Source: Sulfuricurvum sp. (lineage in GTDB: Bacteria > Campylobacterota > Campylobacteria > Campylobacterales > Sulfurimonadaceae). Taken from it: a stretch of 64,000 bases of DNA. Both the position numbers and the translations under genes were made by a program. Below the pieces are notes generated by a model. It did no database searches. It was given only the letters and a program-made list of their open reading frames with translations, and had not been told where the DNA came from. The stretch covers positions 62,001 to 126,000 of the forward strand of contig JAQTTG010000004.1 in the NCBI GenBank assembly GCA_028710885.1, in the 5' to 3' direction. Every line of letters begins with the position of its first letter. Within the stretch, counting starts at the first letter, position 1. This document shows positions 10,895 through 16,277 of this stretch, one piece after another.

Positions 10895-12103
10895 ATGAAA
10901 CCTTATATTTTATTATTGCCTATACTATCGTTTCCATTGTGTGCAATAGATACGTCTCTTTTATCATCTGAAAAAAAAGCTTATTATGAACAACAAGAAA
11001 ATCAAATTAATGCAGGGTATGAAAAACTCCGTTACGATTGGATCTCACCTCTCACCCTAAAGGGATCGAATACCTATGAAAAGTCAGCAGCACTCGGTCT
11101 GCATGACACTCGCCAAAATCTGAGTGCTGGGATTGCACAGGATATTTTTCGTTCCGGCGGTATTACTTATTCCATAGACTATGCAAATGCCAAGAAAAAA
11201 GCCGATACGATCGGTATGGAAAAAGAGATTTCCCTTCTCAATCAGCAACTGGTTTCTTCTGTTTTAAACTACCGAAAAAATACTCTCTTATTACAACAAA
11301 GCGATCTTAAACTCAAAAATGCCTATATTGAAGTTTTTCTCAAACAAAAACAATACGAAGCAGGTGATATCGATATTACTTTACTCAACAATGCTTTGAT
11401 GAATCGCAGCATTGAACTAAAAAATAATGCCTCGATTCAATTTGCATTGTCTCAACAAAAATTTGAAGCAGCCAAATTTAGTGACCATTTTATCGATTCA
11501 ATCAACCTCCCGATCTTAACTCTTAACAAAAAAGAGACCTTCTTAAAAGAAGGATGGGATATCCGTTATGCTCAAGCACAAAGCCAAAGCAATGAGCTGC
11601 AATACAAACAAATCAAAAGCTCGTACTTGCCAAAACTCACATTGATTGGTGATATGGGACTACAACGCTACACTTCATATGATTTAAGTAATTCAAACTA
11701 TCAAGGAAATTATTACGATATGGGGCTACAACTATCAATACCACTTACCTATAATTCTTCTGCCGCTATCCAAGAGGCACAAAGTGCTTATCTAAAACAA
11801 CAATCTCAAATAGCTGACAGTAAACGACAGATGGATGCACTTTATGAGCAATCACTGTCTCATATTGCCAGCTACCAACACATTATTGACATTACAAAAG
11901 ATAACCTTAAATTTTATGAAGGATTAATCAACGCAACACAATCGGCAGTCAAAGCTGGTTTTAAAGCAGGATACGATCTGCAAACACTCCAAAATACCAA
12001 TGCAATCGAAGCGCTCGAAATCAACATTAACGAAATTAACATTCAAATCGAACTTTCAACCCTCCATTATCTCATGCACCCCTCACAGGAGAACTCGTTA
12101 TGA
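10895..12103 (+). CDS. TolC-family outer membrane efflux protein
   Basis: 402 residues. A signal peptide (about 1-17, ending PLCA) precedes two coiled-coil/OEP repeats rich in Gln, Ala and Asn. The second repeat carries the beta-barrel-like stretch GNYYDMGLQLSIPL and the helical AGFKAGYDLQTLQNT motif typical of outer membrane factors. It forms the outer channel of a tripartite exporter. It overlaps the adaptor gene by 4 bases (ATGA). Together with the next three genes it makes a MacAB-TolC-like operon. Its length is a little short for TolC, but both repeats are present. Confidence 0.88.
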   Translation: MKPYILLLPILSFPLCAIDTSLLSSEKKAYYEQQENQINAGYEKLRYDWISPLTLKGSNTYEKSAALGLHDTRQNLSAGIAQDIFRSGGITYSIDYANAKKKADTIGMEKEISLLNQQLVSSVLNYRKNTLLLQQSDLKLKNAYIEVFLKQKQYEAGDIDITLLNNALMNRSIELKNNASIQFALSQQKFEAAKFSDHFIDSINLPILTLNKKETFLKEGWDIRYAQAQSQSNELQYKQIKSSYLPKLTLIGDMGLQRYTSYDLSNSNYQGNYYDMGLQLSIPLTYNSSAAIQEAQSAYLKQQSQIADSKRQMDALYEQSLSHIASYQHIIDITKDNLKFYEGLINATQSAVKAGFKAGYDLQTLQNTNAIEALEININEINIQIELSTLHYLMHPSQENSL

Positions 12104-13317
12104 GTACAGAAAATATCGAAAATACACTTGGTATCGGGGAAAATACATCCTCTAAACGGTGGAAAAAAATTCTTATTATTTTTTTACTCATCGCTGTAGC
12201 TGGAGTAGCAACCATGTATGAAATTAACCGCAACAATAAAAGTACGATTATCTATACCTCTGTACCTCTCAAAATTAAAGACATTACCACAACCGTTTCT
12301 GCAACCGGTAATTTGGAACCGACCAATACCGTCGATGTAGGGATCGAAGTCTCCGGTACGATTAGCAATGTTTTAGTTGATTATAACGATCATGTTCATA
12401 TCAATCAACCATTGGCACAGCTTGATACGACTAAATTGAATGCCGTTGTTACCAGTTCTAACGCCAACTGGATGAAATCCAAAGCCAATGAACAAAATGC
12501 CAAAGCGGCATTGGACAATGCTAATATCGAAAATCAACGTTCTCTAAGTATGTATGCATCAACACAGGGAAATTACCCATCTCGTAAAGAGATGCAAACC
12601 TCATTAACAGCAGTGGAACAGGCAAAAGCATCACTTGCAGCGGCGAAAGCGCAAGTGGATCAATCGTTTGCACAGCTCAAAACTGATGAAGAAAATCTTA
12701 AAAAAGCGCTTGTCGTCTCTCCGATTGACGGAATTGTTTTATCCCGTAAAGTCGAATCGGGTCAAACCGTCGTTGCCGCGATGCAAACACCCGTCTTATT
12801 TACTCTCGCCGAAGATTTGACCAAAATGAAAGCAATCGTCAGTGTAGATGAAGCGGACATCGGCGGAGTCAAAGAGAATCAAAAAGTAAAATTCACCGTT
12901 GATGCCTACCCGAATCGAGAATTCGAGGGAAAAATTACCCAATTGCGCCTCAACTCCGCTGTCGTAAACGGTGTCGTAACCTACGAAGCGGTTGTTGAAG
13001 TTCAAAATAATAACCTCCTTTTGCGTCCGGGAATGACTGCTAATGCCTTGATCATAACCGATACACTTAAACATGTTACCGTTGTTCCAAATGCTGCCCT
13101 CCGTTTTACGCCACCCCTACCTGAAAATGGCACTAACAGCGATAAAAAGAAACATGCAACCGATGAAAATGATAAAGGGGATCATGTTTGGATAGTGAAA
13201 AACACTAAACCAATGAAAATAAAGGTAAATATTGGAAAAAGCGATGGTATATCTACGGTTATATTGAGTTCTCCTCTTAAAGCGGGAGATCTTATTATTA
13301 CCGGAATTGAAGAGTAA
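12100..13317 (+). CDS. MacA/HlyD-family periplasmic adaptor
   Basis: 405 residues. A cytoplasmic tail precedes one membrane anchor (about 24-43). Then come a barrel-sandwich half (SATGNLEPTNTVDVGIEVSG), an alpha-hairpin with Ala/Gln-rich coiled coil (about 105-205), the second lipoyl half (VVSPIDGIVLSRKVESGQTV) and a beta-barrel domain (MKAIVSVDEADIGGVKENQKVKF). This adaptor would bridge the MacB-like transporter and the TolC-like channel. A Lys/Asp-rich insert (about 345-360) sits near the C-terminus. The gene is 4 bases overlapped by the upstream TolC-like gene and 2 bp from the ATPase. Confidence 0.9.
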   Translation: MSTENIENTLGIGENTSSKRWKKILIIFLLIAVAGVATMYEINRNNKSTIIYTSVPLKIKDITTTVSATGNLEPTNTVDVGIEVSGTISNVLVDYNDHVHINQPLAQLDTTKLNAVVTSSNANWMKSKANEQNAKAALDNANIENQRSLSMYASTQGNYPSRKEMQTSLTAVEQAKASLAAAKAQVDQSFAQLKTDEENLKKALVVSPIDGIVLSRKVESGQTVVAAMQTPVLFTLAEDLTKMKAIVSVDEADIGGVKENQKVKFTVDAYPNREFEGKITQLRLNSAVVNGVVTYEAVVEVQNNNLLLRPGMTANALIITDTLKHVTVVPNAALRFTPPLPENGTNSDKKKHATDENDKGDHVWIVKNTKPMKIKVNIGKSDGISTVILSSPLKAGDLIITGIEE

Positions 13318-13319
13318 CG

Positions 13320-14018
13320 ATGAATCCCTTTTCTGCTGGTGTAATCGAATTTTTAGGAACCAAAAAATACTATGGTGAAGGGGAAGCTACCGCATATGCC
13401 CTGCGCGGAGTTGATCTCACAATTCACCAAGGAGAATTCGTCGCTATCATGGGACCAAGCGGATCAGGAAAATCCACCGCAATGAATATTATCGGGTGTC
13501 TCGATACTCCTAGCGAAGGCAAATATCTTTTTGAAGGAGTTGATGTCGGTACCCTCAGTCGAGATCAAAGAGCCCTACTCCGACGTAATTATATAGGATT
13601 TATTTTTCAGGGGTTTAACCTTCTGGGAAAAACATCTGCTATTGAAAATGTTGAGCTTCCCCTACTTTATCGAGGTATACCCGCAGCAGAGCGCCATAAA
13701 TTGGCTTTTGAAGCACTGCGCAGTGTCGGATTAGAACATGTTGCTCATCATACCCCATCTGAGCTCTCTGGAGGTCAACAACAACGTGTCGCCATCGCCA
13801 GAGCTATCGTCACTGATCCTCTAGTCCTGCTCGCCGATGAACCTACCGGAAATCTCGATACGGCAAAAAGTATTGAGGTAATGGAACTCTTGCAATCGTT
13901 TAATCGTAATAAAGGGATTACTATTATCATGGTTACTCATGAAATAGATATGGCAGCATACGCTTCACGAACTATCCATTTCCGTGACGGAGTTATCGAT
14001 ACAAAGGAAACACCATGA
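13320..14018 (+). CDS. MacB/LolD-type ABC ATPase
   Basis: 232 residues, a single ATPase domain. Walker A GPSGSGKST is at 45-53, signature LSGGQQQR near 150, Walker B LLADEPTGNLD near 170 and the switch MVTHE near 205. The sequence fits the lipoprotein-release/macrolide-export subclass. In classical MacB this domain is fused to the permease; here it is a separate gene overlapping the permease gene by 4 bases. It powers the mechanotransmission-type exporter with the neighbouring adaptor and channel. Substrate unknown. Confidence 0.93.
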   Translation: MNPFSAGVIEFLGTKKYYGEGEATAYALRGVDLTIHQGEFVAIMGPSGSGKSTAMNIIGCLDTPSEGKYLFEGVDVGTLSRDQRALLRRNYIGFIFQGFNLLGKTSAIENVELPLLYRGIPAAERHKLAFEALRSVGLEHVAHHTPSELSGGQQQRVAIARAIVTDPLVLLADEPTGNLDTAKSIEVMELLQSFNRNKGITIIMVTHEIDMAAYASRTIHFRDGVIDTKETP

Positions 14019-15223
14019 TTTGGAATGCGTTTCTGCTTGCCTTGCGTGAGATCCGACGTAGTGCCATGCGCTCGATTCTCACCACACTCGGAATTGTTAT
14101 CGGCGTAGCATCGGTTATCGCAATGGTCATGCTCGGCGATGCGACAACAGCTTATGTTACTAACAGTATCTCCAAACTCGGAAGCAATATGCTGATACTT
14201 CGTCCCGGACAGGATCGCCACGGTCCAGGTGGAGACACTACGGCAAAACGTTTTACCCATGATGACATTACTGCAATTAGACGTGAAATCAGTGGATTAA
14301 AGGGAGTTTCCCCTGTCTCATCCAAAGGGATGCAGGTTGTTTACGGAAATCAAAATTATTCTACATCGATCGATGGGAGTGATGACGATTATTTCACTGT
14401 CAAAGATTGGCAATTTGATGATGGCAGAGCTTTTACCCCTGCTGAACTCAAAGGTGGAAAAGCAGTTTGCGTGATCGGTGAAACAGTACGTAAAGAGCTT
14501 TTTGGAGAGCAAAATACTCTCGATGCTTCGATTCGATTACAAAATTTTTCATGCCAAGTGATAGGACTACTCCATCCTAAAGGCGCCTCAATGTTTGGAA
14601 TGGATCAGGATGATATCATCGTAGTCCCCATCCGAATGTTCCAACGCCGTATCAGTGGAAATCAGGATATTTCAACCATTATGATCTCGGCAAAAAATGC
14701 TTCAGGGGTCGAAAACATTAAAACCTCCGTTACTGCTTTAATGCGAGAACGCCGTCATATTCACATAGGTGATGAAGACGATTTTAACGTCCGTGATTTG
14801 CGTGAAGTCGTCCAAACACTCTCATCAACCACCAAAATGCTCACTCTATTATTGGGTGCCGTAGCGGCGATCAGTCTGCTCGTTGGCGGTATAGGTATCA
14901 TGAATATTATGTTAGTTTCAGTCACTGAACGGACTCGTGAAATCGGCATACGTTTGGCAATCGGGGCATTGGAACATGAAGTACTTCTTCAGTTTTTAGT
15001 AGAAGCAGTTGTTCTCTCTTCTTTGGGAGGGATAATCGGTATGGCTTTAGGAATTGGAATCGGTATTGGAATCAATCTTTTTTTTGATTTACCGGTTGTA
15101 TTTAATACGACTATCGTCATTATTGCATTTTTATTTTCGACAATCGTCGGTATTGTCTTTGGTTATTTCCCAGCACGTAAAGCAGCACGTCTTAACCCCA
15201 TTGATGCTTTACGACATGAATGA
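14015..15223 (+). CDS. MacB-like ABC permease (FtsX superfamily)
   Basis: 402 residues. One N-terminal membrane helix (about 20-42, containing LTTLGIVIGVASVIAMVMLG) is followed by a large periplasmic MacB-PCD domain (about 50-270). A C-terminal FtsX unit of three helices contains the signature LLVGGIGIMNIMLVSVTERTREIG and ends with PARKAARLNPIDALRHE. The topology and motifs are those of MacB without its ATPase. It is the last gene of the export operon; the next gene starts 40 bp later, probably with its own control. Confidence 0.93.
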   Translation: MIWNAFLLALREIRRSAMRSILTTLGIVIGVASVIAMVMLGDATTAYVTNSISKLGSNMLILRPGQDRHGPGGDTTAKRFTHDDITAIRREISGLKGVSPVSSKGMQVVYGNQNYSTSIDGSDDDYFTVKDWQFDDGRAFTPAELKGGKAVCVIGETVRKELFGEQNTLDASIRLQNFSCQVIGLLHPKGASMFGMDQDDIIVVPIRMFQRRISGNQDISTIMISAKNASGVENIKTSVTALMRERRHIHIGDEDDFNVRDLREVVQTLSSTTKMLTLLLGAVAAISLLVGGIGIMNIMLVSVTERTREIGIRLAIGALEHEVLLQFLVEAVVLSSLGGIIGMALGIGIGIGINLFFDLPVVFNTTIVIIAFLFSTIVGIVFGYFPARKAARLNPIDALRHE

Positions 15224-15263: not shown

Positions 15264-15830
15264 ATGCAGATCAATACTACAACACCATCATTTAATCCTT
15301 ATACCCAAAGTGGTGTAATATTGAGTGCACCTGATAGCCAAGATTTTAAAGATAAAATTAAAAGTGGGGAGATTTCTAGCAAAACACTTTCCCAAGCTTA
15401 TCTAGTCCAATATTCCCAAACGGTTGAAAATTATTCAACAAATAATGCAGAGGCTCAAAGCGCCCCATTTGATCTTAAAAAAGTCCAAGATATCCTCAAA
15501 TCCATCGATTATAAAGCGATCGGATATACCGGTAAAGCAATCACAGATATGACGCCGGATGAAGCAAAAGCAGTAGTAAGTGAAAACGGCTTTTTTGGAG
15601 TGGCCCAAACCTCTGCACGTTTATCAGATTTCGTATTGAGCGGAGGCGGTGACAATATTGATAAACTGAAAGCTGGACGAGAAGGGATTATTCGCGGATT
15701 TAACGAAGCGGAAAAAATATGGGGAGGAAAACTTCCCGATATCTCCTACCAAACACTGGATAAAGCATTAAGCAAAATCGATGAAAAAATTGCCGCTCTC
15801 GGCGGCAGTATACTAGACACTACCGCTTAA
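15264..15830 (+). CDS. Unrecognised protein with flexible N-terminus
   Basis: 188 residues, no signal peptide or membrane segment. The first 25 residues are rich in Thr, Asn, Ser and Pro (MQINTTTPSFNPYTQ). The rest is helical and charged, with a Gly-rich turn (LSGGGDNID) near 126. I do not recognise a domain. A spaced ribosome site (AAAGGG) precedes the ATG, and TATACT-like -10 elements lie at 15235-15247, so it is probably transcribed on its own. It converges with mscL, 9 bp away. Confidence 0.65.
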   Translation: MQINTTTPSFNPYTQSGVILSAPDSQDFKDKIKSGEISSKTLSQAYLVQYSQTVENYSTNNAEAQSAPFDLKKVQDILKSIDYKAIGYTGKAITDMTPDEAKAVVSENGFFGVAQTSARLSDFVLSGGGDNIDKLKAGREGIIRGFNEAEKIWGGKLPDISYQTLDKALSKIDEKIAALGGSILDTTA

Positions 15831-15839
15831 ACGACTCCT

Positions 15840-16277
15840 TTACTGCGCGCTTTTGCAGTAAGGGCATGTTTTTGCCGCTAGAGGAATCTCCATTGCACAT
15901 TCTCCGCATACTTTTGTCGTCGGTGCAGCCGGTTCCGATTCCGGCTCAGCCTCTTTGAGTTTATTATAAGCTTTGACCATCATAAACATGACAAATCCCA
16001 AAATCGTAAATGAGATAGCATCATTAAAAAATACACCCAATTTAATAGCCGGAGCACCCGCTGCTTCTAATGCCGATAACGAAGGATACTCTTTACCATC
16101 CAATGCAATAAACAACGATGAAAAATCAACACCCCCCATCAAAAGACCAATCGGCGGCATAATGATATTCGCAACCAATGATTTGACAACAGTTGCAAAC
16201 GCTGCACCAAAAATAAATCCGACCGCCATGTCGACAACATTTCCTGAAATCAGAAATTTTCTAAATTCACTGAGCAT
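15840..16277 (-). CDS. mscL: Large-conductance mechanosensitive channel with C-terminal zinc ribbon
   Basis: 145 residues. The first ~105 are a standard MscL: the N-terminal amphipathic FRKFLISGNVVDMAVGFI, TM1 with the gate region GAAFATVVKSLVANIIMPP, a periplasmic loop and TM2 (GVFFNDAISFTILGFVMFMMV). The channel opens under membrane tension to release solutes during osmotic downshock. Instead of the usual short helix bundle alone, the C-terminus carries a Glu/Pro linker and a four-cysteine ribbon (Cys124, 127, 138, 141; CxxC-10-CxxC). This is a zinc-ribbon-like extension facing the cytoplasm. The channel call is sure; the ribbon's role is unknown. Confidence 0.95.
   Translation of the reverse strand: MLSEFRKFLISGNVVDMAVGFIFGAAFATVVKSLVANIIMPPIGLLMGGVDFSSLFIALDGKEYPSLSALEAAGAPAIKLGVFFNDAISFTILGFVMFMMVKAYNKLKEAEPESEPAAPTTKVCGECAMEIPLAAKTCPYCKSAQ

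Follow-up and report, generated by a model that had tools for sequence, protein, structure and literature searches.

The large-conductance mechanosensitive channels (MscL; PF01741, TIGR00220) of E. coli and M. tuberculosis share with the protein described here an N-terminal helix, TM1, a loop, TM2 and a basic stretch after TM2, while they end in a pentameric helix where the present MscL has a Cys4 ribbon. According to the available portions of the papers cited here, the C-terminal helical bundle is a stabiliser and molecular sieve (PMC5722894), gating is possible without it and it is missing from some homologues (PMC6167328), tail truncation is tolerated in the MscLs studied (PMC6167328, PMC4569298), its effect on the threshold is species-dependent (PMC6167328, PMC5722894, PMC9322971, PMC4569298), and the role of the C-terminal domain is disputed (PMC6167328, PMC5722894). 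As stated in the available part of PMC9030384, MscL has no known endogenous ligands; the ribbon-tailed MscL is a candidate for having one. The MscL of M. acetivorans (MaMscL) resembles the one reported here in having no C-terminal helix but, unlike it, is described in the consulted part of PMC6167328 as being without a C-terminal domain altogether. Zinc is not mentioned in the available portions of PMC9322971, PMC6167328, PMC5722894 and one further MscL paper, and none of the PDB MscLs matches the ribbon part of the ribbon-MscL profile, the eight sequences that match this profile all stopping by position 126 of 150. No description of a ribbon-tailed MscL was found in the open-access PMC literature, and by that literature the ribbon-tailed MscL is an undescribed variant of a known family and not a new kind of system.

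The window, which is the whole 64,000-nucleotide stretch of Sulfuricurvum sp. DNA analysed here, carries the gene mscL on the reverse strand (15840..16277, stop codon at 15840-15842), and a genome search found this ribbon-tailed gene to be the single MscL of the genome. The 145-aa product of this open reading frame is matched by PF01741 (E 2e-36, residues 1-126, 125.5 bits against a cut-off of 27.4) and by TIGR00220 (100.7 bits against a cut-off of 71), and it stays below the respective cut-offs of seven narrower NCBIfam MscL models. The canonical C-terminal helix was not treated as defining for MscL, since some members are without one, as noted in the accessible part of PMC6167328. The channel core, residues 14-107 (15957..16238, reverse strand), comprises TM1, a periplasmic loop and TM2, and is supported by the model helices and by alignment to PDB MscL chains; alignment and model together give an N-terminal helix, two long TM1/TM2 helices and the conserved TM1 motif. 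In the AlphaFold2 whole-chain model, the long helices span residues 14-46 and 80-109, and the mean pLDDT of 83 rises to about 90 over residues 121-140 and falls to 73 over residues 111-120.

Behind the core lies a variable Glu/Pro/Ala linker, residues 108-121 (15915..15956, reverse strand), followed by a zinc-ribbon-type tail, residues 122-143 (15849..15914, reverse strand), which is supported by the conservation of its cysteines and by pLDDT. The end of the protein reads EAEPESEPAAPTTK-VCGECAMEIPLAAKTCPYCKSAQ, the linker thus being followed by CxxC-10-CxxC, and the ribbon is C124-GE-C127-AMEIPLAAKT-C138-PY-C141-KSAQ before the stop. Its Cys codons, all on the reverse strand, are 15906-15908 (C124), 15897-15899 (C127), 15864-15866 (C138) and 15855-15857 (C141). 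Gene reading and conservation both bear out the preliminary description, which had reported an MscL with a CxxC-10-CxxC ribbon after a Glu/Pro linker; the range given there for the tail, 15840-15905, starts one codon late, leaving out C124.

The tail alone (30 aa) was predicted as a hairpin with strands at residues 6-8 and 15-17 (pLDDT 94). When the predicted tail was searched with Foldseek, the top 12 rows were all zinc-binding folds (RanBP2/NZF-type fingers, RadD, archaeal ribosome), superposing at 0.5-1.6 Å over 25-28 columns, matches that are weak for so small a fold (best E 0.83); the VIA Z of the tail against the compared folds was 3.7 at most. Any likeness of the predicted backbone to RanBP2/NZF-type zinc fingers, ribosomal eL40 and the RadD ribbon is at the level of the fold only. 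Sequence matches of the tail profile to metal-binding chains in the PDB are likewise weak, the best being archaeal RNA polymerase subunit P (10 residues, E 0.0042), followed by RadD (E 0.027) and eL40 (2ayj, E 0.074). Among Pfam families, the tail has the two CxxC knuckles of the short zinc ribbons UPF0547, DZR and Zn_Ribbon_1 (PF10571, PF12773, PF13240), yet differs from them in falling under their curated cut-offs: UPF0547 matches at E 1.8e-5 with 25.4 bits against a cut-off of 29, and the other three zinc-ribbon families compared also match below theirs. At E 0.01 or better, PF10571 matches 39 of 49 tails and DZR 41 of 49. The tail is accordingly best described, at the level of prediction, as a C4 zinc ribbon with no more specific assignment; its cysteines are putative metal ligands, and zinc is the presumed metal. 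Haem attachment was considered and rejected, as a His directly follows a CxxC in only 3 of 251 ribbon tails and nowhere in the tail of the window.

Ribbon-type tails are often seen on database MscLs. Here, 339 loci were fetched and 338 MscLs were read (one locus, L029, gave no MscL frame), a set that includes near-copies and repeats (L027, the same as L032 of Sulfurospirillum diekertiae and as L172; L034, the same as L164) and holds each survey seed twice, for example as L040 and L190. Their tails comprise 251 ribbons (CxxC-x10-CxxC), 85 canonical helices (LLxEIRDLL) and two degenerate helices, and none has both. Ribbon and helix are mutually exclusive in the MscLs read, so that the ribbon occupies the place taken by the five-helix bundle in the channels of E. 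coli and M. tuberculosis. This is also the situation in the window, where LLxEIRDLL is absent and the ribbon stands in its place. The earlier view of a ribbon added to an otherwise normal MscL is thus not upheld, as the ribbon replaces the standard C-terminal helical bundle; that the tail is widespread and is such a replacement goes beyond the preliminary description and weighs more.

The spacer between the two CxxC pairs is 10 residues in 251/251 ribbon tails. These contain 226 distinct 18-residue ribbon strings, in which only the four Cys and one Ala (Ala135) are common to all; the Cys invariance among the strings follows from the pattern used, and the real test is whether partial ribbons occur, of which none, with some Cys lost, was found among the 338 MscLs read. 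The preliminary description had called for a search of MscL homologues for the extension and had named cysteines not conserved in orthologues as evidence against it; the search found the ribbon in 251 of 338, with exact spacing in each, and a broken ribbon occurs only outside this set, in L352 (G1258), where the first CxxC is kept and unrelated sequence follows, owing to a broken gene or an assembly error. Chance occurrence of the cysteines is excluded by their conservation in the genus and among the 338 MscLs. The stretch of 12 residues after TM2 holds on average 3.1 Lys/Arg in ribbon tails and 3.3 in helix tails.

In the genus, sampled by 37 genomes including that of the window, 24 possess a full-length MscL, and the ribbon is present in 24/24. 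G004, whose locus is L029, has a weak MscL fragment, and 12 of the 37 genomes, some with a listed completeness of 99-100%, gave no MscL match, suggesting that MscL is often gained or lost in the genus. Another 23 genomes of the same order yielded MscL in four, two with the ribbon (L003, L027) and two with the helix (L001, L002). Mean pairwise identity among the 24 congeners is 0.89 for the core, 0.79 for the ribbon and 0.58 for the linker, which has no invariant column. Pairwise dN and dS have medians of 0.099 and 1.30 in the ribbon, and of 0.069 and 1.74 in the core, taken over the pairs giving values (115/276 and 152/276, respectively). Within the genus, purifying selection acts on the ribbon while the linker drifts. 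In the 26 ribbon MscLs of genus and order, each Cys codon varies between TGT and TGC and Cys is always kept. A 54-row alignment of proteins 45-75% identical to that of the window likewise has all four Cys in every row, an invariance that is partly by selection because the rows were chosen among ribbon loci.

Beyond the order, MscL passes the cut-off in 112 of 397 genomes of the window's phylum, and the 90 of these 112 MscLs that were read (the other 22 being left out) divide into 47 ribbons and 43 helices. A ribbon-MscL profile was also searched against the contigs of 84,980 species; among the best 80 of at least 579 confirmed relatives, 77 have the ribbon, a figure that is no measure of the ribbon's share because the relatives were ordered by their similarity to a ribbon query. 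These 77 loci carry 20 NCBI phylum names, with nine loci having no phylum assignment. The share was instead surveyed with the 54-row ribbon-MscL profile in genomes sampled evenly across seven further phyla, where any core match counted as MscL and a match reaching position 146 of 150 as ribbon, two adjacent match pieces on one contig being joined. By this criterion, the ribbon is present in 230 of 502 MscL-bearing genomes, counts that include the survey seeds (one per phylum, all ribbon) and come from a profile built of ribbon MscLs, which favours finding ribbon MscLs. Per phylum, with group names being those of the seed loci, the ribbon was found in 7/105 MscL genomes of Pseudomonadota (249 searched, with 15 first-look candidates scored per larger genome), 19/42 of the Bacillota group (149 searched), 29/109 of the Bacteroidota group (148 searched), 72/84 of Chloroflexota (151 searched), 34/52 of the Desulfobacterota group (148 searched; one more, the broken G1258, is not among the 34), 21/41 of the Cyanobacteriota group (117 searched) and 48/69 of Acidobacteriota (119 searched). 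Cases with only the C-terminal part matching were dropped beforehand (Pseudomonadota 3, Bacillota 1, Bacteroidota 1, Chloroflexota 1 plus G1050, Desulfobacterota 7, Cyanobacteriota 8, Acidobacteriota 4), and G1497, whose match runs to position 145 with two stops, was left out of the ribbon count. The profile criterion agrees with direct reading at 150 loci from the first five phyla surveyed (110 ribbon, 40 not). The counts, which lean somewhat towards the ribbon, suggest that the channels on which work has been done to date, all with helix tails, represent only about half of MscLs across the eight sampled phyla, that of the window and the seven others.

The tail does not simply follow the phylogeny of the channel. 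On a quick tree of 207 channel cores, from which the tails were excluded, the tail type must change no fewer than 16 times, where 50 label shuffles give 40-47; the tail therefore partly follows descent, yet has changed many times. A careful tree of 45 rows gives five tail changes, at least four of them forced by starred branches; it was built on about 108 columns and its support is thin: of 41 inner branches, 12 are starred and 17 drawn open, and the chosen outgroup is not cohesive. In this tree, the clade around the window contains 32 ribbon and six helix rows, the helix rows being nested at two or three places, two on starred branches (98/83 and 95/95) and the third at 92/73. A single ribbon origin was rejected on the 16 changes of the quick tree and the four or more of the careful one. 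By parsimony, which is not proof, the ribbon would be the older state within the window-phylum clade, while the root of the family is not settled by the tree. Ribbon and helix have been exchanged repeatedly over closely related cores, for instance between L181 (helix) and L147 (ribbon), with 90/105 core residues identical, and between L002 (helix) and L142 (ribbon), with 89/107. Such swaps over cores up to 86% identical provide matched natural pairs for testing the disputed role of the C-terminal domain, and their recurrence in many bacterial groups amounts to a natural experiment on the role of the channel end.

Its conservation, its mutual exclusion with the helix, its swapping on the tree and the confident prediction of a hairpin together mark the ribbon as a conserved substitute for the helical bundle. 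The fixed spacing, the predicted stand-alone fold and the exchange with a helix make a structural cap or docking end, stabilised by metal, its most likely role. The explanation that we favour, with a probability of roughly 0.55, is a tension-gated MscL pore in which a folded C4 ribbon replaces the five-helix bundle and does a cap-like job without any switching. Under this explanation, the pore would be gated normally by tension and its cytoplasmic end would be an independently folded C4 zinc ribbon, whose four Cys would coordinate a structural zinc, one in each subunit. Below the pore, five ribbons would hang from linkers that are flexible and, in the window, 14 residues long. There they would do work of the same kind as the bundle: they may order the cytoplasmic ends, act as a sieve or cap at the mouth of the pore, adjust subconductance and perhaps dock a partner, and they would not switch the channel. 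The ribbon is predicted to fold as a monomer, which does not in itself imply an assembly of five in the manner of the helices. Since truncation is tolerated in studied MscLs, according to the available portions of PMC6167328 and PMC4569298, "the same job" might mean little job.

A different and clearly less probable explanation is that the ribbon mainly binds a cytoplasmic partner, protein or nucleic acid, and thereby places the channel or couples it to a process. Binding modules are among the closest folds (RanBP2 fingers with Ran-GDP, NZF with ubiquitin, ZRANB2 with RNA, and ribosomal proteins), although function is not shown by a shared fold. Also in its favour, the last Cys is followed by a TS pair in 159 of the 251 ribbon tails, and ribbons matching the same profile occur on the unrelated proteins of L342, L343, L346, L350 and L355; from the latter, the module appears to be one that is common in bacteria and has been recruited by MscL. 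Against this, a conserved operon partner was sought and rejected, no neighbour being constant within about 1.5 kb in 28 loci, that of the window included; an adjacent 188-aa gene occurs in 11/28 and an HD-GYP-like gene in 7/28. The partner would also need to be dispensable, because lineages swap the ribbon for the helix. In the genome of the window, the idea that ribbon tails are common was discarded, as a UPF0547 search at E 10 gave only MscL and one fragment at chance level (E 0.55).

Unlikely, in our estimation, is a larger claim, namely that these channels form a large undescribed MscL class whose cytoplasmic zinc-ribbon receptor end gives ligand, partner or metal/redox input. If it were true, the valve would not be purely tension-gated and lineages would toggle the input by swapping tails.

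Less likely than a cap, and improbable in our estimation, is the gate suggested in the preliminary description, in which the tension threshold would shift when zinc is lost or the Cys are oxidised. Cys4 sites are oxidisable, and five of them would lie near the gate. Ribbon tails are frequent in the samples of Chloroflexota and Desulfobacterota and account for roughly half of the MscLs that were read in the window's phylum, and many members of these three groups are anaerobes or sulfur-cyclers. However, the constant spacing in 251 tails and the confident stand-alone fold resemble a structural site, the variable linker is poorly suited to tight coupling, and no accessory gene is fixed nearby in the 28 loci; tight zinc/redox gating and one fixed operon partner are both disfavoured by the variable linker and the absence of a constant neighbour gene. 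The least probable explanation, that any small soluble module preventing aggregation or degradation of the C-terminus suffices and the ribbon has no specific role, draws on the frequent exchange of tails on both trees and on the tolerated truncations (available portions of PMC6167328 and PMC4569298), but the constancy of Cys, Ala135 and spacer across 226 different ribbon strings, the ribbon loci in at least 20 named phyla and a dN well below dS in the genus point to a selected structure.

Several minor observations concern the surroundings of mscL and other ribbon-bearing sequences. The 188-aa protein, which has no assigned family, is encoded at 15264..15830 on the forward strand and converges on mscL, and its 11 loci all lie in the genus. 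Upstream of the MscL region, four adjacent genes on the forward strand (10895..15223), read from their ORFs as TolC-like, HlyD/MacA-like adaptor, ABC ATPase and MacB/FtsX-like permease, may form a putative tripartite export system. The unrelated proteins with ribbons appear, by their sequences, to be short PspC-like membrane, SPFH-like and ankyrin-membrane proteins. L342 (G1230) and L343 (G1215) are neighbouring short proteins with the ribbon joined to a putative PspC-like membrane domain, and L355 (G1195) reads as an SPFH-like protein with three successive CxxC-type ribbons at its end. At G661:C1:2490685-2491041, a second, broken MscL-like match (positions 21-144, three stops) that ends on the ribbon side and was not counted as ribbon lies beside an intact helix-type MscL. 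Finally, in six small genomes of the Cyanobacteriota group (G1302, G1319, G1354, G1389, G1310 and G1377), other frames match the ribbon part of the profile, and two such matches stand side by side in G1302:C1 and in G1389:C1, in frames of the same length.
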